Source: Curvibacter sp. PAE-UM (GTDB lineage: Bacteria; Pseudomonadota; Gammaproteobacteria; Burkholderiales; Burkholderiaceae_C). From it: DNA of 64,000 nt. The notes below the pieces were generated by a model. That model was not told the origin of the DNA, ran no database searches, and saw nothing but the letters and a program-made list of their open reading frames with translations. The stretch lies in the NCBI RefSeq assembly GCF_001432305.1, contig NZ_KQ483358.1:1544430-1608429 (forward strand), written 5' to 3'. Positions 2,748 to 14,128 of this stretch are shown here, in pieces (positions within the stretch are counted from its first letter, which is position 1; each line of letters opens with the position of its first letter). The translations under genes and the position numbers were made by a program.

Positions 2748-4361
2748 ATGAACCATACAGAATCAAGCTCGTTTGCGAATTCGTCAGGCAGTTCGGCGCA
2801 AGCCCTGCTGGGCGACAAGATCATGTTGGCCGCCATCGGCCTGAGCGCCCTGGCCGCCGTGGTGCTGGGCGCGAGCTTCGTCGAATCAGGCATGGCCTGG
2901 ATTTCCTCAGTCGTCCTGGTGGCGGCCGCCCTGGGCGTGTACGCCACAGCCAAGGGCACGCTGACCTCGAGTCTGGCGCTGGCGGTCATCCAGTCGCTCT
3001 TCGTCGCGCTGCACATCGACCTGGCACGCGGCATGACCGAGCTGCACTTCGGTGTGTTCGTCACGCTGGCGCTGCTGCTGGTCTATCTGGACTGGCGCCC
3101 CATCGTGGTGTCGGCGCTGACCTTTGCCGTGCACCACGTCCTCTTCGACCGCCTGCAGGCGGCCGGTTTCGGCCTGTACTGCCTGACCGAACCCAATTTC
3201 GGGCTGGTGGTGATCCACGCCGTGTACGTGGTGATCCAGACGGCGCTGGAAGTGGTGCTGGCCGTCATGATGGGTCGCACGGCGCGCGAAGGTATCGAGC
3301 TGGGCCAGCTGGTGTCGGCGGTGGATCGTCCGGATGGCATTGCGCTGGACATCGTGGATCAGGTGCCAGTGACGACGCCGGCCGCCCAGACGCTCAAGTC
3401 CACGCTCCAGCGCATGCAAACCGCGGTATCAGCGGTGCGTTCCTCGGCCAGCAGCATGGACGTGGCCTGCGCCGAGATCGCTTCCGGCAACCACGACCTC
3501 TCGGCTCGTACGGAGAGCCAGGCCAGCGCGCTGCAGCAGACGGCGGCTTCCATGGAGCAACTGGGCGCCACCGTCAAACAGAACGCTGACAACGCCAAAC
3601 AGGCCAATCAGCTGGCGCAGAGCGCGAGCACGGTGGCCGTGAAGGGCGGCGAAGTGGTGACCCAGGTGGTGGACACCATGAAAGGCATCAATGATTCGAG
3701 CAGGAAGATTGCCGACATCATCAGCGTGATCGACGGCATCGCCTTCCAGACCAACATCCTGGCGCTCAACGCGGCCGTGGAAGCCGCGCGCGCGGGTGAG
3801 CAGGGCCGCGGTTTTGCCGTGGTGGCCTCAGAGGTGCGCTCGCTGGCCGGCCGCAGTGCCGAGGCCGCCAAGGAGATCAAGACCCTGATCAACGACAGCG
3901 TGGGCCGCGTCGCGCAGGGCACGGCGCTGGTGGACCAGGCCGGCGCCACCATGACCGAAGTGGTGGCCAGCATCCGCCGCGTGACCGACATCATGGGCGA
4001 GATCAGCGCTGCCAGCTCCGAGCAGACCACCGGCGTGGCGCAAGTGGGCGAGGCCGTGACGCAGATCGACCAGGCCACGCAGCAGAACGCCGCGCTGGTC
4101 GAGGAGATGGCGGCCGCGGCCAGCAGCCTGAAAAGCCAGGCCCAGGACCTGGTGCAGGCGGTCAGCGTCTTCAAGATGTCGCAGGGCCAGTCCTCCGGTG
4201 GCGCCCCGGCCCCGGCCCCGGCGCCGCGCTACAGCCCGCCTGCACCCCGTGCGGCTGCTGTGGCCCCGCGCCGTGTGGCCGCGACACCTGCACCGGCCGC
4301 ACGGCCTGCGCTGGCCCCGGCCAGCAAGGCGGGTGGTGGTGACGACTGGGAGAGTTTCTAG
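2748..4361 (+). CDS. Methyl-accepting chemotaxis protein
   Basis: A 537-residue chemoreceptor. Residues about 25-175 hold five or six hydrophobic segments with only short loops, so it has a membrane-embedded rather than a periplasmic sensor. The cytoplasmic coiled coil carries the invariant hairpin tip ([20 protein letters not shown], about residues 331-350) that contacts CheA and CheW. A Pro/Ala-rich linker leads to a C-terminal DDWESF, resembling the tethering pentapeptide for CheR and CheB. The start at 2748 precedes MNHTESS. The stop overlaps that of the convergent GGDEF-EAL gene. The ligand is unknown. Confidence 0.93.
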
Positions 4362-7126
4362 GCCACTGCCCTGAGCAGGCGCTCGATGTCCTGGGCAGGA
4401 ACCGGCCGCGAGTACAGGTAACCCTGGGCGGCATCGCAGCCAAAGGTCTGCAGGCGGCGGCGAATGTCGTCGGTTTCCACACCTTCGGCGATGGTCTTGA
4501 GGTTCAGGCTGCGTGCCATCTGGATGATGGCGCGCACGATGGCCTCGTCGTCCGGATCGGTGGCCAGGTCGCGCACGAAACTCTGGTCGATCTTGAGCTT
4601 GTCGATGTCCAGGCGCTTGAGGTAGGACAGGCTGGAGTAGCCGGTACCGAAATCGTCGATGGCCAGCTTCACGCCCATCTGCTTGAGCTGGCGCACGCTG
4701 GTGAGCACGCTCTCCACGTTCTGGAGCAGGATGGATTCGGTCAGCTCCAGCTCCAGCAGCTGCGGCGCCAGGCCGGATTCGGCCAGCGCGCGTGACACGG
4801 ACTGTTCCACATTGCCGCGCTTGAACTGGATGGCCGAGAGATTGACCGCCATGGTCAGCGCTGGCAGGCCTGCCCGTTGCCATGCCATGGCCTGCGCGCA
4901 GGCCTGGCGCAGCACCCAGTCGCCCATGGGAACGATCAGGCCGCTTTCCTCGGCCACGCCGATGAAGCGCCCCGGCGCCACCAGGCCAAGCTCGGGGTGC
5001 ATCCAGCGGATCAAGGCTTCCACCCCGGTCAGCGCGCCGCTGGTCAGCTCGTACTGGGGCTGGTAATGCAGCACGAACTCCTGACGTTCCAGGGCGTGGC
5101 GCAGACCGTTGCGCATGAGCAGGTGCTCGCCGGCCTCGGCATCCATGGTGGGGTCGAAGAAATGGTAGGTGTTGCGGCCGGACTCCTTGGAGCGGTACAT
5201 CGCGAGATCGGCCTTCTTGCGCAGGGTCTCGAAGTCGCGTCCGTCGTCCGGCGCGATGGCCACGCCCAGGGAAGCGGATGAGGCCAGATCCTGCGTGTCG
5301 ATCCGCAGGGGTTCCTGCAGCCGCTCCATGATCTTCATGACGATGGCCTGGACGACCTCGCTGTCGGGCAGGTCGCGCAGGACCAGCAGGAATTCGTCAC
5401 CGCCCTGGCGGCTGATGGTGTCACTGTCGCGCACGCAGCTGCGCAGGCGGCGTGCCACTTCCTTGAGGAATTCGTCGCCCGCCGCGTGGCCCAGGGTGTC
5501 GTTGATGGACTTGAAGTTGTCCAGGTCCAGGTAGACCAGTGCTACCTTGGTGTTGCTGCGTTCGGCCTGGGCCATGGCCTGCTCGAAGCGGTCCTGCACC
5601 AGGAGGCGGTTGGGCAGACCGGTCAGGGTGTCGTGGTAGGCCAGGTACTCGATGCGCTGCTCTGCACTTTTGCGGTCGGTGATGTCCGAGCCGATACCGC
5701 GGTAGCCGGTGAAGATGCCCTGTTCGTCGAACATGGGGACACCACTGATGGAGAAGGTCCGCAGTTCACCCTCCATGGTGCGGACCTGGTAGACGAAGTT
5801 GCGGAAGGGCTCGTGGCGGTCGAGCATGGCGCGATGCTCTGCCCATTGCTCATCACTGACGCCGACGATGGGCATTTCCCAGCGCGTCCAGCCCAGGTAG
5901 GTGTCCACTCCGGTCTTGTCCAGTCCCCGTGACATGAGGGTGAAACGGTAGCGGGTGTCCTGCTCCCAATACCAGTCGGTCGACATCTCGGCCAGGCTGC
6001 GAAAGCGCGTTTCGCTGTCCTGCAGGTGCTGGCGCTGCTCGTCCTGCGCTTGCACCATCCTGTTGAAGGTCTGGACCAGGGCGCCGATTTCGCCGCTGGC
6101 GGGCAGCCGGAGCTGACGGGCCTCGCCTTGCTTGTGCTGCAGTTCACGCACATGCTGCGTCAGCGCCCCCAGGGGTGCCAGCGCCTTGCGCATGACCAGC
6201 CAGATCAGCAGCACGACCACCGCCGTGCCCGCAGCAATGGCCAGCAACAGGAAGCTGCGAGCCTGCTGCAGCGGTTCGGTGGCCTCGCTGACGGGCAGGT
6301 TCATGCTGAGGATCCAGGGCACGGTGCTCAGGTGCTTGAAGCTGGTGATGACCTCGACATCGCGCGAATTGGTGACGGTGTCGCTGCCTTCGAAGCCCTC
6401 GATCGCACGGTCCACCAGCGGGTTGAGTCCTGGCAGGACGATGGGCTGGAGGATGCGCGTGGGATTGCGGTTGGAGATGAAGATCCGGTCCTTGGTGAAC
6501 AGCGAAACGTAGCCGGTCTGGCCGAGCTTGAAGTCATTGAGGTCGGAGAGGAAGTTGCGACCCAGCAGTTCGATGCTGCCATGCAGGCGGCCGACCATGG
6601 CGCCCTGGGCATTGAACAGCGGGATGGCCATGGTGATGACCGGCCGTCCCATGGCCCGGACCGAGGTGAAGGGCTTGGAGATATAGGGCTGGCGGGTTTC
6701 GGTCACTACCTTGAAGACCTCCAGGCCGGAAACATCCCGTCCGCGCCGACCGGGAATGTAGGGCGATTCGGCCACGACGCGCCCCTGCGCATCGATGAGC
6801 AGGATGCCATTGGTGAAGAACGCCTTCAGGCTGGTTTTCTGGTCCAGGAACTCCTGCGCCAGCTGCGGCTTGTGCAGTGCCTGCAGGGGCACTTGTGTGG
6901 CCACCTGGGCCAGCACGGCCTGGCTCTGGCGCAGCTTGTCGTCGATGGTGTCGGCCAGGGTGCTGGCCAGGACGAACTGCTCGTGGTACAGGTTCTGGCG
7001 AAAGCTCTGGTCGAAATGGCGCAGGACCAGCCAGGTCAACAGGCTGGCAAAGCCGATGAAGAGCAGGGCGACGGCAAGCACCACCCGGGTCTTGAGGCTG
7101 GACTGTCGAAACCAGGTCAGACGCAT
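4358..7126 (-). CDS. Diguanylate cyclase/phosphodiesterase with dCache, HAMP-like and PAS domains
   Basis: A 922-residue membrane protein. TM1 lies at about residues 15-36, a periplasmic Cache-type sensor at 40-290, TM2 near 295-315, then a HAMP-like linker and a PAS domain (about 375-495). GGDEF is intact at 574-578 with RQGGDEF, and EAL at 703-705 (GVEALIRW) is followed by the usual [14 protein letters not shown]. Both catalytic signatures look intact, so it could make or degrade cyclic di-GMP; which activity dominates cannot be read here. It is a single gene, convergent with and overlapping the chemoreceptor gene by 4 nt. Confidence 0.93.
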
Positions 7127-7160: not shown

Positions 7161-7925
7161 TCAGGGTCTGACGCCGGGGGCCTCCAGGGGCAGGCCGCGG
7201 GCGCGAACTCCGAGGAAAAGTTCCAGTTCCACCAGTTCTCTTGCGCCCAGCGGCCAGGCTTGGGCGCGCACCCCGCTCAGGCAGTTGCGCAGGCGGCGCT
7301 GCAGCGAGCCCAGGCCCTGCCATTCGAGCCGGTACTGCGGGTAGCTGGTGGGATGGCCCTGCGGGATGGTGGTGCCGCCCAGGCGCTGGCCCCAGCGCTG
7401 GTCATGGCATTGTGCGCAGGAGAGGTCCAGCTGCCCCAGGCGTTGCGCATACAGCTGGCGGCCGCGTTCGAGGTGCGACTGCAGGCGCACATCCGCGGGC
7501 GGGGTGATGGGCAGGCCGCGCGACTGCAGCGCCACCAGGCTTTCCAGGGCCAGCAGTTCCTCGCTCTCCAGTTTCCAGGGGGCGGCCCGCTGCTGCGACT
7601 GCCGGCAGCGGTTGATGCGCTGCGCCAGGTTGACGGGGCCCTGCGTGGGCGTGTCGAAGGCTGGGTAACGCGTCGCTACACCGCGCAGGCTGCTCACGTC
7701 GCCATGGCAGCTGGCGCAGGATTTGCCGCTGGCCCCCGCGGCTTGCTGCCACAGCTGCGCGCCCTGCTGGACCCACAGCATGGCCGGGTTGCGTGCATCG
7801 TCGCGTTGCATGGCCTGCACGGCGGGCCCCATGAACTCGAAGTCGGAACGACGCTGGGCCTCGGGGATCTGCGCGTGCAGTGACGGCGCCAGCAGCACCA
7901 GCAGGAAACGGCAACGCCACCTCAT
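7161..7925 (-). CDS. soxA: Sulfur-oxidation c-type cytochrome SoxA (di-haem)
   Basis: This 254-residue exported cytochrome has two CxxCH haem sites (CASCH at 70-74 and CAQCH at 170-174). The late cysteine in RLRNCLSGVR (Cys215) matches the position of the SoxA active-site cysteine. SoxA pairs with SoxX to oxidatively attach thiosulfate sulfur to the SoxY carrier cysteine in the periplasm. It is the last gene of a six-gene operon; its start overlaps the soxZ stop as ATGA. No soxB or soxCD is seen in the window, so the pathway here is partial. Confidence 0.9.
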   Translation of the reverse strand: MRWRCRFLLVLLAPSLHAQIPEAQRRSDFEFMGPAVQAMQRDDARNPAMLWVQQGAQLWQQAAGASGKSCASCHGDVSSLRGVATRYPAFDTPTQGPVNLAQRINRCRQSQQRAAPWKLESEELLALESLVALQSRGLPITPPADVRLQSHLERGRQLYAQRLGQLDLSCAQCHDQRWGQRLGGTTIPQGHPTSYPQYRLEWQGLGSLQRRLRNCLSGVRAQAWPLGARELVELELFLGVRARGLPLEAPGVRP

Positions 7926-8245
7926 GCGACGCTGATCGCCACGCTCTCGCTGTGACGGAAACCCTGATCGCCTTCCCAGGTGAAGCGTAGCGTGCCGCTG
8001 GCCGTGGCCACGGTGTGAAAGGCGACCAGCGGGTTGGCGGCAATGGCAGCCGACAGCTCTGCGCTGAAGACCAGTTCCTCGTTGTAGTGACAGCTGAAGC
8101 GCTGGATGATGTTGCGCGCCAGCCGCTGGCCGTCGGCGCCGGGCCGAAAGCCCGACTCCATCGGGTGGCCGATGATGGTGCTGATCTCGATCACCTCGCC
8201 GCGGCGCGCGGTCTTGGGAACCTTGATGAGGGTGCGCACCGTCAT
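7922..8245 (-). CDS. soxZ: Sulfur carrier complex subunit SoxZ
   Basis: A 107-residue single-domain beta-sandwich protein with RTLIKVPKTARRGEVIEIST near the N-terminus and HPMESGFRPGADG, both characteristic of SoxZ, the partner that holds SoxY in the thiosulfate carrier complex. It has no signal peptide, as usual, because it is co-exported with Tat-dependent SoxY. The start at 8245 is preferred to an upstream ATG at 8263, since MTVRTLIK fits the family and gives ATGA overlap with soxY. Confidence 0.9.
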   Translation of the reverse strand: MTVRTLIKVPKTARRGEVIEISTIIGHPMESGFRPGADGQRLARNIIQRFSCHYNEELVFSAELSAAIAANPLVAFHTVATASGTLRFTWEGDQGFRHSESVAISVA

Positions 8246-8697
8246 TCGATCTCCTCCAGGCAAGCCGCCAGCGTGACGATCACCTCGATCGTGTGCTGCC
8301 AGTAGCTGCCGTCGCTCAAACGCGCCACCGCACTGAGTTTTTGCGTGGTGGCCAGGCGCATGCGCGTGGCGACGCTGGCGCGGCCGGCGCGCGGACCCAG
8401 CGTGAAACGCACCACATCGGGCTGCGGGTTGCGCTGGTTGAAGACGGCGATGGCCACCACATGGTCGGCTGCCGTCATGGGGCTGTCCACCTGCACGGCC
8501 AGCGGCACGGTGTTGCCGTTGTCCACCAGCGGGGCGATGTCGAGTTTCACCCGCCCGGTCTGCACCGCAGCGCCGCCGGTCCAGGCACGAATGGCCTCGT
8601 CCAGCTGGTCGGCGGCGTGGGCCGGGCGCAGCAGCAGCCAGCCGCCCAGGCCGGCGCCGGAATGCAGCAACTGGCGACGTGTGGTGGCAGGGTTCAT
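8242..8697 (-). CDS. soxY: SoxY-like sulfur carrier subunit with atypical C-terminus
   Basis: A 151-residue protein with a Tat signal (TRRQLLHSGAGLGGWLLL) followed by a SoxY-type domain. Canonical SoxY ends in GGCGG, whose cysteine carries the sulfur intermediates on a flexible arm. Here the protein ends TLAACLEEIE: one cysteine (Cys146) is kept, but the flanking glycines are Ala and Leu and five residues follow it. That could change arm flexibility or substrate. It sits 1 nt after soxX and overlaps soxZ. Identity as a SoxY homologue is secure; thiosulfate chemistry is not. Confidence 0.85.
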   Translation of the reverse strand: MNPATTRRQLLHSGAGLGGWLLLRPAHAADQLDEAIRAWTGGAAVQTGRVKLDIAPLVDNGNTVPLAVQVDSPMTAADHVVAIAVFNQRNPQPDVVRFTLGPRAGRASVATRMRLATTQKLSAVARLSDGSYWQHTIEVIVTLAACLEEIE

Positions 8698-8698
8698 T

Positions 8699-9127
8699 TC
8701 AATCCTTCAGCGTGGTGAGATAGGCCACCACGTCCTCGACCTGCTGGGCATTCAGGATGGGCCGGCCTTCCCAGGCGCGGCCCACGCGCGTGAGCCCTTC
8801 GGTCCGGTAGTAGGCCGGCATGATGCTGTCCGGGTTGAGGCGGCGCGGGTCGACCAGGCGCAGGCGCAGCTGCGCTGCGGTCCAGCGTTGGCCGGCGCCG
8901 GCCAGATCGGGCGCCAGATTGCCCTGGAAGCGTTCCTCGGGAATCGGACCTGCATGGCACAGCAGGCACAGGCCGGCCTGGCGGCTGGCGACGATGGTGC
9001 GCCCGCGCGCTGCATCGCCTGCCAGGCCTTCCAAAGCGGCTGGAATGCCGTCACCCACCACGGTCACGGCACCCGCCCCCAGGGGCAGGGCCAGGGCCGT
9101 GGCGGCCGCAAGCCGGCGCAGCATCAT
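8699..9127 (-). CDS. soxX: Sulfur-oxidation c-type cytochrome SoxX
   Basis: A 142-residue exported monohaem cytochrome with a signal peptide, CLLCH haem site at residues 54-58 and a distal Met in NPDSIMPAYY, as in SoxX. It accepts electrons from SoxA. The first of two adjacent ATGs (9127) was chosen because it gives ATGA overlap with the stop of the molybdoenzyme gene, showing coupling to that oxidoreductase. It ends 1 nt before soxY. Confidence 0.88.
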   Translation of the reverse strand: MMLRRLAAATALALPLGAGAVTVVGDGIPAALEGLAGDAARGRTIVASRQAGLCLLCHAGPIPEERFQGNLAPDLAGAGQRWTAAQLRLRLVDPRRLNPDSIMPAYYRTEGLTRVGRAWEGRPILNAQQVEDVVAYLTTLKD

Positions 9128-11325
9128 GCCCGCCGCAGGTCCTGGCTCTTGATCGGCAGCTCGCGGATGCGTTTGCCGGTCGCGGCAAAGATGGCGTTGA
9201 GCACGGCCGGTGCGGCCACCGCGATGGTGGGCTCGCCCACGCCGCCCCAGAAGCCGCCCGAGGGCAGCACGATGGTTTCCACCGGCGGCATCTCGGCCAG
9301 GCGCATCACGGGGTAGCTGTCGAAGTTCTTCTGCTCGACGGCACCGTCCTTGACGGTGATCTCGCCATACAGGGCGGCCGACAGGCCGTAGACGAAAGAG
9401 CCCTCCACCTGCGCCTCGATCTGCTGCGGGTTGACGGCGTGGCCCGGGTCGGTGGCCGCCACGATGCGGTGCACCTTGAGCTTGCCCTCGGCGCTGACCG
9501 AAACCTCGGCGCAGGCCGCCACGTAGCTGCCAAAGCCCATGGTCTGCGCCAGGCCGCGGAACACACCGGCCGGGGCCGGCTGGTCCCAGCCCACGCGCTG
9601 GGCCACGGCGTTGAGCACGGCCAGGTGCTTGGGGTGCTTGTCCATGAGCTTGCGGCGCAGGGCCAGCGGGTCCTGGCTGGTGGCATGCGCAATCTCGTCG
9701 AGGAAACACTCGAGGTAGATCGTGTTCTGGTTCAGGTTCACGCCGCGCCAGAAGCCGGCCGGCACATGCGGGTTGCGCATGGCGTGGTCGATCAGCAGGT
9801 TGGGGAAGCTGTAGCCGATGGAGGCCTCGGGGCCGGAGGGGTTGAGGCCCTGGTAGACCACCATGTCCTTGCCGTCGCGCATGGCTTGCGGCGCCACCGT
9901 GGCCAGGATGGACTGGCCCGAGATGCGCATGTGCAGTCCGCTGATGTTGCCCTGTGCATCCAGGCCGGCCGTCAGCCTGGCGCTGGTGATCGGGTGGTAG
10001 AAGCAGTGCTGCATGTCCTCCTCGCGCGACCAGATCAGCTTGATCGGCGTGCCCGGCATGGCCTTGGCCAGCTGCACCGCCTGCGTGACGAAGTCGCTGC
10101 GCCCGCGCCGCCCGAAGCCGCCGCCGAGGTAGAGCTTGTAGACCTCGCATTGCGCCGGCGGCAGGCCCGATGCCTCGGCCGCGGCGGCCAGGGCCGCCTC
10201 GCCGTTCTGCGTGGGCACCCAGACGTCGCAGTGCTCGGGCGTCCAGCGCGCCGTGGCGTTCATGGGCTCCATGGTCGCGTGGTTCTGGTAGGGATAGCTG
10301 TAGACGGCCTCGATCTTGCGCGGGGCACCCGCGATGGCTGCGGCGGCGTCCCCGTTGCTGTTGCCCACCGAGGTCGCAGCGACGGAGGGGTCGAGACCGG
10401 CCTTGAGCGTGGCGGCGATGTCGGCCTGCGAGATGGCCGCGTTGGGGCCGTAGTCCCATTCGATCGTCAGTGCGTCCAGCGCGGTCTTGGCGCGCCACCA
10501 GGTGTCGGCCACCACGGCCACGGCGCTGGGGCCGACCTGCACCACCTTCTTCACGCCGGCGCGCCGCATGATGGGCGCGGCGTTGAAGCTCTTCACCTTG
10601 CCACCGAAGACCGGGCAGTCCCGGATGGCGGCGTTGAGCATGCCCGGCAGGCGCAGGTCGATGCCGTAGTCCTGCGCCCCCGTGGTCTTCTTGAAGGTAT
10701 CGAGCCGCGCCATGCGCTGGCCGGCGATCTTCCAGTCCTTCGGGTCCTTGAGCGGCACGCTGGCCGGATCGGGCGGCGTGAGCTGCCCGGCGGCGGCGGC
10801 CACGCGGCCGTAGATGGTCTTGCGGCCCGTGGGCGTGTGCGTGATCACGCCGGCGGCGGCGCTGCATTCGGCGGCTGGCACGCCCCAGGCGTTGGCCGCG
10901 GCCTGCACCAGCATCACGCGCGCGATGGCGCCGCCCTTGCGCACGTAGTCATGCGACTCGCGGATGCCGCGGCTGCCGCCGGTGGCGAAGTTGCCCCAGA
11001 TGCGTTTGCGCGCCAGGTTCTGGCCCGGCGTGGGGTACTCGGTGGTCACGCGCGCCCAGCTGCATTCCAGTTCCTCGGCCACCAGCTGGGCCAGGCCGGT
11101 CAGCGTGCCCTGGCCCATCTCGGAACGTGCGATGCGGATGACCACGGTGTCGTCGGGCTTGACTACTACCCAGGCGTTGATCTCGGGCGCGTCGGCACGC
11201 ACCGCACTGGTCTGGGCCTGCGCCAGCGGTACATGGAAGCTCACCATCAGGCCGCCGGCGGCGCCGGCCGTGCCGGCCAGGAAACCACGGCGCGAGAGTT
11301 CGGGGTTCGGCAAAGAGGTGCTCAT
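9124..11325 (-). CDS. Xanthine-oxidase-family molybdopterin subunit (IorB-like), Tat-exported
   Basis: This 733-residue protein has a twin-arginine signal ([15 protein letters not shown]) and the architecture of periplasmic molybdenum hydroxylase large subunits such as isoquinoline 1-oxidoreductase beta. Molybdopterin-binding [12 protein letters not shown] is in the middle, and [17 protein letters not shown] near the C-terminus supplies the catalytic Glu. It pairs with the 2Fe-2S subunit encoded just upstream (4-nt overlap) and overlaps soxX downstream. Substrates in this family are usually aldehydes or N-heterocycles; operon placement with sox genes suggests electron delivery to a SoxX-type cytochrome or an unrecognised sulfur substrate, which is inference. 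Confidence 0.85.
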
Positions 11326-11825
11326 GTTGCGCTCCCTTCGGGGTGCTGGATGGCCAGCTCGGCCTTGCGGGTGCCGCCCCCGCGTGCTGCGGTGTGGATG
11401 GCGGCGCGCACGCGGTTGTAGGTGCCGCAGCGGCAGATGTTGGTGACGGCCGCGTCGATGTCGGCATCGCTGGGCTTCGGGTTGGTCTTGAGCAGGGCGG
11501 AGACCGCCATGATCATGCCGCTCTGGCAGAAGCCGCACTGCGGCACGTCCAGTGCCTGCCAGGCGCGCTGCACCGGGTGCGTGCCGTTGCGCGACAGGCC
11601 CTCGATGGTCACCACGGTCTGGCTGGCCTTGACGGCGCGCAGCGGCATCGCGCAGCTGCGTACCGCGTTGCCGTCGATGTGCACGGTGCAGGCGCCACAC
11701 TGCGCGATGCCGCAACCGTATTTGGTGCCCGTGAGGTTGAGCTGCTCGCGCAGCACCCACAGCAGGGGGGTATCGGGTGCCGCGTCGAATTCGCGGTCCT
11801 TGCCGTTGACGTTGAGTTTCGCCAT
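11322..11825 (-). CDS. (2Fe-2S)-binding subunit of molybdenum hydroxylase (IorA-like)
   Basis: A 167-residue protein with a plant-type ferredoxin cluster (Cys38, 43, 46 and 58 around [17 protein letters not shown]) and a second helical cluster (CGFC at 97-100 and CRC at 131-133). This is the standard small subunit of xanthine-oxidase-family enzymes. It transfers electrons from the Mo subunit and has no signal peptide, so it is probably exported with its Tat-bearing partner. The start at 11825 is followed by [14 protein letters not shown]; an upstream ATG is not supported. It is the first gene of the Mo-sox operon. Confidence 0.88.
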
Positions 11826-11935: not shown

Positions 11936-12385
11936 TCAGACGGCCTTGATGGCCAGCGTGCGGCGGCGGGACTTGCTGGCTACGGGTTTACCCGGGATCA
12001 GATCGGCCAGGGTGTGACCATCCAGATGCGCCATGAAATCCTGGAGTGCGCCGCGGATCACCGCAGCGAGCCGACACCCGCGTGTGATGGTGCAGTCGTT
12101 GCCGGGACCGAAGCACTCGACCAGCTGGAAGTCGCTTTCCATGCTGCGCACCACCTTGCCCAGGTTGATGGCCTCGGGCGGTGCGCCCAGACGCATGCCG
12201 CCGCCCTTGCCGCGCACGGTCTCGATCCAGCCGGCCAGGGCCAGCTGGTGCGTGATCTTCATCAGATGCGCTTCGGAGATGCCGTGTACCGTGGCGATCT
12301 CGGCGATGGTGCACAGGCGGTCAGGCTGCTGCGCCAGGTACATCAGCAGGCGCAGCGCGTAATCGGTCATGCTGGTCAGGCGCAT
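11936..12385 (-). CDS. nsrR: Rrf2-family nitric-oxide-sensitive repressor NsrR
   Basis: This 149-residue Rrf2 regulator has an N-terminal winged helix (MRLTSMTDYALRLLMYLAQ, with recognition region ISEAHLMKITHQLA). Three cysteines (Cys91, Cys98, Cys104; CFGPGNDC then TRGC) have the spacing of the NsrR iron-sulfur ligands. NsrR loses DNA binding on reaction of its cluster with NO. It is downstream of nnrS and a truncated globin gene, which fits an NO-detoxification unit. An NsrR-type operator at 14141-14163 supports autoregulation if the three genes share a transcript. Confidence 0.88.
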   Translation of the reverse strand: MRLTSMTDYALRLLMYLAQQPDRLCTIAEIATVHGISEAHLMKITHQLALAGWIETVRGKGGGMRLGAPPEAINLGKVVRSMESDFQLVECFGPGNDCTITRGCRLAAVIRGALQDFMAHLDGHTLADLIPGKPVASKSRRRTLAIKAV

Positions 12386-12491: not shown

Positions 12492-13721
12492 TCACGTCCG
12501 CTGGCCCAGCGTGACGGTGGCCACTTGCGGCTTGTGGTCCGGCCGCGGGCGAATCATCCAGGGAAAGAAGCGCCAGAGATAGAGCGCGAGTGCGGCGATC
12601 CAGCACAGAGCCGCGCCCTGCAGGAGCAGCAGGACGGGGCCCGACGGGAACAGGCCGGCCAGGCGCAGCGCCACAGCGATGACCATCAGCCAGTAGCTGG
12701 CCACCATGCTGCGGTCCACCACCAGCGGTCGGCCCAGGTGGCCCAGCGCCGTGCGCGTGACCATGCCGATGATCATCAGCGTGAAGCCGCCCATGGCGAT
12801 CATGTGTACATGCACGGCATTGCGCAGCGGCGCACCGGCGGCCTGGGCCGCAGCCACGAGCAGGCCGGCGCCCAGTCCCGCATAGCCGGCGTACAGGATC
12901 CACAGCAGCGGCCGGCTGCGCACCGCCAGCGGTTTCCAGCCCAGCAGCTGCCACAGCGGAATGCTGCCGCACACCAGCAAGGCCAGCGCCAGCGGCCACT
13001 GCCACTGCAGCAGCACGAAGAGTACGGCCAGCGCACCTGCAGCGAGCTGCACCAGGCCGCTGCGCTCGTGCATGGGGATGGTCAGCCCCGGCACCGCACG
13101 CATGGCGAAAAAGGGGATGACGCGCCGCCCCACCAGCAGGGCGATGACGGCCATGCACAGCAGGCCGGCGTTGAAGCGCTGCATCAGCAGGGTGTGATCG
13201 CCGCCCAGCGCGGCCAGCAGGTAGAGCACGTCGGTGGTGCCCAGGGCCAGCAGCAGCAGCGGCACGGCGTAGTTGCGCCGGTTGCGCGTGCCGTAGACCG
13301 CGCGTGCCATGGCCGCTGCCGACAGCAGGAAGAACGCCGCCTCGGCGCCGAAACCCAGCCAGAAGAGTGCAGGGCTGGGCAACAGCAGGCCGATGCGTGC
13401 CAGCAGCCACAAGGCGCAGGCGGCCAGCAGCACGCCGGGCGGCGTGGGGTTCACACCGGTCCAGTTGGCACCGGCCGTCATCAGGAAACCCACCGCGATG
13501 GTGGCGACGAAGCCCCACATCATCTCGTGCGCGTGCCAGGCCACCCCGCCCAGCGGCCCCTGCAGCCACTGGGGCGCAAAGATCCACAGCGCCACCGCCA
13601 CCAGGGCCCAGCCGGTCCCGGCCAGGTAGAGCGGGCGAAAGCCCATTTCCAGGAAGGCCCGCAGCGTGGGCCGGGGCCGGGCCGATGCGGCCGGTTCGTC
13701 GATCTGCAGCAGCGTGCTCAT
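12492..13721 (-). CDS. nnrS: NnrS-family membrane protein
   Basis: This 409-residue polytopic membrane protein has about 12 hydrophobic segments and NnrS signatures such as FRPLYLAGTGW, WHAHEMMWGF and VHMIAMGGFTLMIIGM, whose histidines are thought to bind haem or metal. NnrS helps cells tolerate nitric oxide. The start at 13721 (MSTLLQIDEP) overlaps the globin stop as ATGA; a longer reading to 13787 is unlikely. It is flanked by globin upstream and nsrR downstream on the same strand. Confidence 0.92.
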   Translation of the reverse strand: MSTLLQIDEPAASARPRPTLRAFLEMGFRPLYLAGTGWALVAVALWIFAPQWLQGPLGGVAWHAHEMMWGFVATIAVGFLMTAGANWTGVNPTPPGVLLAACALWLLARIGLLLPSPALFWLGFGAEAAFFLLSAAAMARAVYGTRNRRNYAVPLLLLALGTTDVLYLLAALGGDHTLLMQRFNAGLLCMAVIALLVGRRVIPFFAMRAVPGLTIPMHERSGLVQLAAGALAVLFVLLQWQWPLALALLVCGSIPLWQLLGWKPLAVRSRPLLWILYAGYAGLGAGLLVAAAQAAGAPLRNAVHVHMIAMGGFTLMIIGMVTRTALGHLGRPLVVDRSMVASYWLMVIAVALRLAGLFPSGPVLLLLQGAALCWIAALALYLWRFFPWMIRPRPDHKPQVATVTLGQRT

Positions 13722-14128
13722 GGGGTCAGCTCCTGCAGCCCCGTGCTGGTCTCGGTGGCCGGGTTGGCCAGCTGGTAGCCGTACCACAGGCTGCCGGCGA
13801 TGCGGTGCGCCAGATGGCTCACCCGCTCCCGCAGGGCCGTGTTGGGCAGGGTGGCGGCCGTTTCATCGAAGAGCTGCAGCCAGTGGCTGAACAGCACGGC
13901 CGTCAGCCCGGGCAGGGCCGCGTGCAAGGGCATGGGCGTGCCGTGAAAGCGCCGAGTGCCGCGCAGCGCCGACGACCAGAAGTCGCACAGCTTGGCTTCG
14001 TGGGCGGGCCAGTCATGGATGCGGGCGTTGAAGATGGGGCCCAGCTGCTCGTCGCGGCGCACACGCGCATAGAAGCGCTGCACCAGCGTGGCGATCTCTT
14101 CTTCGCTGCACAGTTGCGGGTCGGGCAT
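13718..14128 (-). CDS. Group III truncated haemoglobin
   Basis: This 136-residue protein has the family III truncated globin pattern: FYARVRRDEQLGPIFNARI in the first helices, FWSSALRG, and the proximal-His segment PMPLHAALPGL (His69). Such globins bind O2 or NO and often belong to NO-stress regulons. It is the first gene of the globin-nnrS(-nsrR) cluster. An NsrR-like operator begins 13 nt upstream of its start codon, so de-repression by NO is likely. Confidence 0.88.
   Translation of the reverse strand: MPDPQLCSEEEIATLVQRFYARVRRDEQLGPIFNARIHDWPAHEAKLCDFWSSALRGTRRFHGTPMPLHAALPGLTAVLFSHWLQLFDETAATLPNTALRERVSHLAHRIAGSLWYGYQLANPATETSTGLQELTP

Follow-up and report, generated by a model that had tools for sequence, protein, structure and literature searches.

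In the canonical Sox system (SoxXA-YZ-B-CD), SoxXA couples sulfur nucleophiles to SoxY. Here we describe a six-gene unit from Curvibacter sp. PAE-UM in which soxX, soxY, soxZ and soxA are joined to the genes for the two subunits of a molybdenum (Mo) hydroxylase. The unit lies in a stretch of 64,000 nucleotides, referred to below as the window, which spans positions 1544430-1608429 of contig 1 in a genome of 3.63 Mb. Its SoxX and SoxA are full equivalogs of the canonical proteins and retain the active-site cysteine, whilst SoxY and SoxZ share the Pfam families of their canonical counterparts. There are three differences: the unit is without SoxB or SoxCD, the arm of its SoxY reads AACLE rather than GGCGG, and a Mo hydroxylase of the xanthine dehydrogenase (XDH) family is encoded in the operon.

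Several other described systems bear comparison with this locus. The name of the family TIGR04487 covers the arm alone, whereas in the unit of the window that arm accompanies a Mo hydroxylase. TIGR04557, exemplified by PP_2677 of the Pseudomonas putida ped cluster, likewise pairs a SoxYZ carrier with a neighbouring dehydrogenase of the periplasm, although one of another cofactor class. That carrier is a single fused protein found with a SoxH-like hydrolase and pyrroloquinoline quinone (PQQ) enzymes, in contrast to the separate SoxY and SoxZ found here with SoxXA and a Mo enzyme, and the window proteins reach only 50.7 and 34.4 bits against TIGR04557 (cut-off 140). In SAR324 bins a flavocytochrome c gene adjoins soxYZ in a partial Sox set comprising only SoxYZ, and the accessible part of that account reports no Mo hydroxylase in the cluster (PMC4782131), where the unit has one. 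For the enzyme itself, the membrane-bound aldehyde dehydrogenase of Gluconobacter oxydans (8gy3 chain C) has the same fold throughout the Mo subunit (TM-score 0.80, 27% identity), but the sequence ahead of the Glu motif is KPTG in that protein and FWGG in the window enzyme. The SoxY family is already named in NCBIfam; its link to a Mo hydroxylase was not found described in the open-access literature, where titles and the openings of abstracts yielded no Mo hydroxylase with SoxYZ.

A preliminary description of the window proposed a single functional unit made up of the Mo enzyme and the Sox proteins. This is well supported by a conserved gene order, by co-occurrence across genomes, and by the grouping of the Mo subunits and of the carriers into one clade each. 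The altered SoxY arm and an altered active-site loop in the Mo subunit are features absent from that description. We propose, with a confidence that stops a little short of even, that the six genes encode a dedicated periplasmic oxidation module in which the Mo hydroxylase would oxidise an adduct held on the altered SoxY arm.

Results

Organisation and spread of the unit

All six genes lie on the minus strand, running from 11825 to 7161 in the order iron-sulfur (FeS) subunit, Mo subunit, soxX, soxY, soxZ, soxA, and are joined by four overlaps of 4 nt and one gap of 1 nt. The FeS/Mo and Mo/SoxX junctions are ATGA overlaps (11325-11322 and 9127-9124), the single-nucleotide gap separates SoxX from SoxY, and SoxY/SoxZ and SoxZ/SoxA overlap at 8245-8242 and 7925-7922. 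The coordinates and profile searches bear out the arrangement first described, on one strand and with junctions of these lengths. The accompanying statement that the genes must be co-translated was too strong, since the overlaps suggest co-transcription and coupling of the six genes but do not show it. A scan for promoters and terminators gave no useful signal.

The gene order is not confined to this strain. In the named-genome set (the best 80 of 447 relatives), Mo, X, Y, Z and A are found together at 77 of the 80 loci, the other 3 being cut by contig ends, and the full order FeS-Mo-X-Y-Z-A is present at 68; in the other 12 the sequence always stops on the flank where genes are missing. The names in this set are mostly those of Burkholderiales (among them Curvibacter, Hylemonella, Polaromonas, Noviherbaspirillum, Massilia, Duganella and Rhizobacter), the remaining labels being Betaproteobacteria, Proteobacteria and uncultured bacterium bins, together with two Rhodocyclaceae (L171, L203) and two loci with rhizobial labels (L196, L201). 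In the sample of the window's family, 51 of 299 genomes match TIGR04487 at an E value of 1e-25 or better, 39 of them above the cut-off, across 36 of 141 genera. At the level of the order, 58 of 300 genomes match the arm alignment at 1e-20, a few of these matches having GGCGG or other arms and no Mo gene (L278, L284, L286). For the class sample of 369 genomes, which includes three of the window's family, the window's genome is alone above the TIGR04487 cut-off among the matches listed. A strain-specific oddity can therefore be rejected, as the unit recurs across named, family-level and order-level loci.

We examined the places of 50 of the 51 family-level matches (G657 was left out) and 60 of 64 at the order level. 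At the family level all five proteins (Mo, X, Y, Z, A) are encoded together at 43 of the 50 loci. The others are Mo-Y-Z (L080, L111), Mo-X-Y-Z (L106), two loci cut by contig ends (L097, L112), a short contig on which neither SoxX nor Mo was found (L109), and soxXYZA with 5.6 kb upstream and no Mo (L085). The order-level loci are more varied: all five are encoded at 29; Mo-Y-Z occurs with neither X nor A nearby at 20 (at L255 and L271 no more than 0.6 kb of contig follows SoxY, too little for SoxA to be judged); X-Y-Z-A is found at eight with no Mo gene closer than 7 kb (two with GGCGG arms, one cut by a contig end); and three are other cases. With SoxX and SoxA both missing from the vicinity of Mo-SoxY-SoxZ at 20 of the 60 order-level loci, the constant pair is the Mo enzyme and SoxYZ. 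The same count tells against the suggestion, made in the preliminary description, that electron flow from the Mo enzyme to SoxX is the core of the unit.

The Mo-FeS genes lie on the strand opposite soxXYZA at L279, L280, L282, L290, L328, L329, L330, L332, L335 and L337, and in G949, G829 and G792 Mo and soxXYZA are both present but apart in the genome. Neighbouring genes encode TctC, AMP-binding, transglycosylase, shikimate dehydrogenase and similar products, and no regular extra part emerged from 20 neighbour-cluster representatives annotated with Pfam and ten neighbours of L239, L258 and L284.

The altered arm of SoxY

The SoxY of the window passes TIGR04487 ('SoxY-related AACIE arm protein', SoxY_para_1) with 207 bits against a cut-off of 172, and fails TIGR04488, the model for true GGCGG SoxY, with 88 bits against 125. 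The cysteine sits in an AACIE-type arm, AACLE, not in GGCGG. Cys146 and Glu148 are invariant in both alignments of relatives (24/24 and 53/53), although the arm acid may be Asp or absent among wider relatives. The structural model is confident for the SoxY core but gives the arm a low predicted local distance difference test score (pLDDT; last two block means 64 and 47), and the arm is probably mobile.

Altered-arm rows occupy one side of a branch in the SoxY tree, 114 against 36 others (Shimodaira-Hasegawa-like approximate likelihood ratio test, SH-aLRT, 96), the comparison rows being matches of the same profiles and not a full sample of SoxY. A Mo gene is nearby for 105 of the 114 and not for the other 9. 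With L278, L284 and L286, which have GGCGG or GCGM arms and no Mo gene, counted among the other rows, the tree shows one change. Arms of the types SAC, ACFD, ACGG and GCG are also found in Mo-linked SoxY, and some family-level Mo-linked SoxY fall below the TIGR04487 cut-off. At one FeS-Mo-SoxYZ locus (L237, G746:C42) the SoxY arm is TITGCG and the protein scores 135.8 bits, above the cut-off of 125 for true GGCGG SoxY, so automatic annotation would read thiosulfate oxidation there. At L121 and L284, SoxYZ with the arm ASGCGM is encoded behind a flavocytochrome c sulfide dehydrogenase gene, with no Mo gene.

The Mo hydroxylase and its active-site loop

The FeS subunit is made up of Fer2 and Fer2_2 domains and the Mo subunit of two MoCoBD domains, with no flavin adenine dinucleotide (FAD) subunit among the six genes and no cytochrome domain fused to the Mo subunit. 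A twin-arginine sequence, SRRGFLAG, was read by eye at the N-terminus of the latter, which reaches no NCBIfam equivalog cut-off (best 158 against 780 bits). Fold models agree with the expected folds, and the closeness of the marker residues described below to Mo was judged from sequence.

Glu698 lines up with the glutamate in the motifs GVGEL (E. coli PaoC) and GLGEP (8gy3_C). Ahead of it, all 78 clade rows share Trp693, a position taken by Pro (30) or Leu (2) in the 32 rows outside the clade; this comparison excludes L281, L326 and the second of the two Mo rows at L111. The same Trp is found in 170 of 175 SoxYZ-linked Mo subunits above 800 bits, a set in which named-genome loci and other loci are partly the same genomes, and the remaining five are unreadable by the motif pattern. 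Because clade members without SoxYZ carry the Trp too, it is, to judge by these alignments, a marker of the clade rather than of the SoxYZ link. Also specific to the clade are the arginine of TGGSR (Arg119) and Glu376, which lies three positions beyond Gln373; we take that Gln to be the Mo-facing one.

The clade was defined in a quick maximum-likelihood tree without bootstrap, built on 113 rows thinned from 138, with split or short Mo matches (including L293) and the named loci L127-L206 omitted. It contains 78 rows (SH-aLRT 100), of which 73 adjoin SoxYZ and five do not. Three of these five belong to the genomes in which soxXYZA lies elsewhere (G949, G829, G792), and the other two genomes, G666 and G812, hold another linked copy. 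Outside the clade are 33 unlinked rows, one SoxYZ-linked row (L281) and the second Mo gene of L111, the link label of which is an artefact of distance. Clustering of the IorB-like subunits therefore places the linked proteins in one clade, L281 excepted. The omitted L293 (G664, of the same genus as the window) is an orphan FeS-Mo pair in which VSEP replaces VGEP and a proline-rich stretch is inserted; no SoxY of the altered-arm type was found in the G664 genome at an E value of 1e-25.

Linkage between the two proteins extends to their occurrence in whole genomes. The 299 family genomes divide into 49 with both a clade Mo and a TIGR04487-type SoxY, 8 with Mo only, 2 with SoxY only and 240 with neither (Fisher p 3.8e-45, kinship ignored). 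The Mo-positive set consists of 56 genomes above 700 bits plus G373, in which the frame is split; G664, G634, G560, G646 and G400 (570 to 640 bits) are omitted from it, and the first three of these have the marker Trp with SoxYZ not nearby. Five of the eight Mo-only genomes encode a diverged SoxXYZA with ACFD-type arms beside the clade Mo, and G385, G526 and G549 do not. In G451, one of the SoxY-only genomes, the locus is on a contig of 4.3 kb; in the other, G442, there is space upstream for a Mo gene, but none was found.

SoxX, SoxZ and SoxA

Both cytochromes exceed their equivalog cut-offs (SoxX, TIGR04485, 83 bits against 61; SoxA, TIGR04484, 220 bits against 110), and their residues, including the haem sites, could be aligned to solved SoxXA. 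The haem motifs of SoxA are kept and its active-site Cys is conserved in at least 98% of 143 SoxA sequences. SoxZ is clearly above the cut-off for PF08770, with 73 bits against 76 for TIGR04490. Given the conserved haem motifs, SoxA Cys and Mo catalytic residues, the Mo enzyme and SoxXA look catalytically competent. Coordinates of the genes and key codons are collected in Table 1.

Table 1. Genes and selected codons of the unit, in window positions
Feature	Coordinates	Strand	Assignment
2Fe-2S subunit of Mo hydroxylase, IorA-like, 167 aa from ATG at 11825	11322..11825	-	PF00111 + PF01799
Mo-binding subunit, IorB-like, 733 aa	9124..11325	-	PF02738 + PF20256; nearest solved structure 8gy3_C
soxX, mono-haem c-type cytochrome	8699..9127	-	TIGR04485 above cut-off; aligned to 2c1d_B, 1h31_B
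soxY variant, C-terminus VTLAACLEEIE replacing GGCGG	8242..8697	-	TIGR04487, 207 bits
soxZ	7922..8245	-	PF08770; TIGR04490 73 bits, slightly below cut-off of 76
soxA, di-haem, Cys aligned with RFRGCIRD of 1h31_A	7161..7925	-	TIGR04484 above cut-off
Codon of Trp693 (Mo subunit), clade marker, five residues ahead of conserved Glu	9247..9249	-	
Codon of Glu698 (Mo subunit), invariant in 25/25 aligned rows	9232..9234	-	
Codon of Cys146 (SoxY), carrier cysteine of altered arm	8260..8262	-	

Relation to canonical Sox

The absence of soxB and soxCD from the locus, remarked on at the outset, is confirmed. No SoxB is encoded in the window, and the genome's sole true SoxB and sole SoxC above cut-off lie outside it, about 245 kb away, in a canonical sox locus (G000:C1:1293855-1300439; L065) that comprises soxC, soxY, soxZ, soxA, soxX and soxB, with a gene in the soxD position that has a c-type haem motif. 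A second soxX-A-Z-Y copy is found near 725-728 kb (L066). Since a canonical sox locus is present in the same genome, the unit in the window is an addition to the Sox system here.

A separate canonical sox locus is kept in the window's genome, but not in every carrier. INDEPENDENCE from canonical Sox is seen in 14 of the 51 carrier genomes, which are without a true SoxB. Thirteen of these 14 have no SoxC above cut-off, G486 having one, and eight have no canonical SoxY above cut-off (G398, G486, G522, G563, G570, G578, G584 and G648). G563 (L080), a genome on one contig of 6.6 Mb and 99% complete, has FeS-Mo-SoxYZ, but neither SoxA nor SoxC was matched in it and a true SoxB is absent. Among the 18 genomes with the Mo-SoxY-SoxZ form that were checked, the other 17 all encode a SoxA above cut-off elsewhere.

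A flavocytochrome c sulfide dehydrogenase is encoded somewhere in all 14 SoxB-less carriers and in the window's genome, and its gene lies within 6 kb at 25 of 75 named Mo-linked loci. The positions taken are after soxA, before FeS on the same strand, before FeS on the opposite strand, and between Mo and soxX; Pfam confirms the assignment in six examples. These neighbours favour sulfur chemistry, mainly in those lineages.

Discussion

SoxXA is mostly kept, SoxB is missing, the Mo enzyme is tied to SoxYZ, and the active ends of both partners are changed; this combination leads us to suggest that the Mo hydroxylase may act on the cargo of the SoxY arm. SoxXA, whether encoded in the operon or supplied from elsewhere in the genome, would join a sulfur compound to the cysteine of the altered arm. 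The compound loaded would most likely be an organic thiol or sulfide, an organic thiol being our first guess because the enzyme family hydroxylates carbon. SoxYZ would then swing the adduct into the Mo hydroxylase, which would oxidise it by means of a hydroxyl group from water, and the pair of 2Fe-2S clusters would pass the electrons on to a c-type cytochrome, for instance SoxX. The SoxB step would not be needed, so the product would not be freed by a thiosulfohydrolase. For a carrier loaded as SoxY-S-S-R, hydroxylation next to the sulfur would free an aldehyde or acid, and SoxY would be left in persulfide form; the flavocytochrome c sulfide dehydrogenase found next door in some lineages could handle the leftover sulfur. 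Loading, docking, reaction, acceptor and substrate are all steps that we infer. In the described system, thiosulfate coupling is attributed to SoxXAB (PMC11582611). Of the two roles originally envisaged for the Sox proteins, presentation of a substrate to the Mo enzyme by SoxYZ is the one that fits better, given the altered arm and Mo loop, although the reaction itself is only proposed.

A number of observations weigh against this scheme. Enzymes of the XDH family usually hydroxylate carbon, mostly in aldehydes and N-heteroaromatics; a protein-bound substrate would be unusual, and the nearest solved relative of the Mo subunit is an ordinary aldehyde dehydrogenase. The partnership is not without exceptions on either side. 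The clade Mo genes of G549, G385, G526 and G664 are found in genomes in which no altered SoxY was detected, and the same is probably true of G634 and G560, which have the marker Trp but no SoxYZ nearby. Conversely, G442 encodes an altered-arm soxXYZA with 5.6 kb upstream free of Mo and no Mo match in the genome at an E value of 1e-170. At L281 (G803:C51) the SoxYZ arm is ESACLDGG and the adjoining Mo subunit lies outside the clade and has no Trp; this is apparently a second recruitment. Loading by SoxXA cannot be universal, since G563 is without any SoxA. SoxB is found in 37 of 51 carriers (G657, one of the 37, being a partial match in an incomplete genome) against 126 of 248 other genomes, a weak contrast (p 0.005, kinship ignored), and the unit may yet be linked to canonical Sox. 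Finally, the sulfide dehydrogenase gene is next door at only 4 of 97 loci in the other genome set, which overlaps with the 75 loci of the named set, itself rich in a few genera.

The strongest alternative, although in our view an unlikely one, is that the Sox proteins serve the Mo enzyme, an ordinary aldehyde oxidase in this case, with the sulfane sulfur of SoxYZ maintaining or restoring the Mo sulfido ligand in the periplasm, or SoxYZ shielding the cofactor against stray sulfur compounds. Insertion of this ligand is generally taken to occur in the cytoplasm, ahead of export by the twin-arginine translocation (Tat) pathway, which counts against such a role. It would nevertheless account for the constancy of Mo and SoxYZ where SoxXA is optional, and is consistent with the aldehyde dehydrogenase as nearest structure. 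A cofactor-protection or disulfide role has also been proposed for the SoxYZ-like carrier beside PQQ dehydrogenases (PMC12997753). However, the SoxYZ-linked clade has an active-site loop of its own, and none of the 32 out-of-clade IorB relatives, which are encoded in these same genomes, lies beside such a SoxY among the matches listed, the nearest being about 15 kb away (L303, G550); these places were compared by eye, with about 3 kb of DNA around most of them. The broader idea that SoxYZ assists Mo hydroxylases in general is likewise weakened, as the out-of-clade relatives were not found beside SoxYZ among the matches listed.

Somewhat less probable is an aldehyde relay, in which the arm cysteine would form a thiohemiacetal that the Mo enzyme converts to a thioester for subsequent hydrolysis, much as the names given to the SoxYZ-like carrier and the SoxH-like hydrolase next to PQQ alcohol dehydrogenases suggest. 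Here the proximity of carrier and dehydrogenase in TIGR04557 would find a parallel, loading would proceed without SoxXA, in line with G563, and again the nearest structure is that of an aldehyde dehydrogenase. Yet SoxX and SoxA, the makers of S-S bonds in Sox, accompany the pair at 77 of 80, 43 of 50 and 29 of 60 loci in the three sets, with the SoxA Cys conserved, no SoxH-like hydrolase was seen among the 20 annotated neighbour-cluster representatives, and the sulfide dehydrogenase neighbours point to sulfur.

Those neighbours could also be accommodated by an inorganic route, in which the Mo hydroxylase would replace SoxCD and act on carrier sulfane sulfur derived from sulfide or thiosulfate, with a SoxB-free release. 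SoxCD is itself a Mo enzyme with a cytochrome that acts on SoxY-bound sulfur, and carriers without SoxB or SoxC exist. We regard this route as improbable: SoxC belongs to the sulfite oxidase family, with a fold and chemistry unlike those of the XDH family, and the window's genome has canonical SoxC, SoxYZ, SoxAX and SoxB, so there is no evident need of a replacement. An operon of convenience, in which SoxX, a c-type cytochrome, just accepts electrons from a Mo subunit that has no fused cytochrome domain, and SoxYZ and SoxA are passengers with no shared function, is very hard to credit, as it is SoxYZ rather than SoxX that accompanies the Mo gene at 20 of 60 order-level loci, Mo and soxXYZA both persist where they are apart (G949, G829, G792), and the arm and the Mo loop have both changed.

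Should the Mo hydroxylase indeed oxidise an adduct on the SoxY arm, Sox carrier chemistry would extend beyond inorganic sulfur with SoxB dispensable, and Mo hydroxylases would be able to work on substrates attached to a carrier protein. TIGR04487, which NCBIfam names by its arm only, would acquire a function. It would also be a warning against taking soxXYZA in Burkholderiales as proof of thiosulfate oxidation, given that 8 of the 14 SoxB-less carriers have no canonical SoxY above cut-off. A more specific form of this proposal, which we consider doubtful as a whole, is a further Sox pathway: SoxXA would couple an organic thiol to the remodelled arm and the Mo hydroxylase would oxidise the tethered carbon, with an aldehyde or acid set free and the sulfur left on the carrier. 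If correct, this would represent substrate-tethered periplasmic catalysis by a Mo hydroxylase without SoxB or SoxCD, and would tie organosulfur breakdown to respiration across Burkholderiales.

Neighbouring genes

Upstream of the operon, the window encodes NnrS (12495-13787) and a regulator of the Rrf2 type that comes closest to NsrR models (11936-12385), a nitric-oxide theme. Membership of the regulator in the unit was rejected, as it is near the operon in the window only, among the neighbourhood loci compared. At the other end, a Cache-HAMP-GGDEF-EAL gene (4358-7126) on the same strand starts 34 nt beyond soxA. This gene was also set aside as a regular part of the unit, since it does not regularly adjoin the operon elsewhere; the loci at which it does so, L067, L075 and L078, are all from the same genus.

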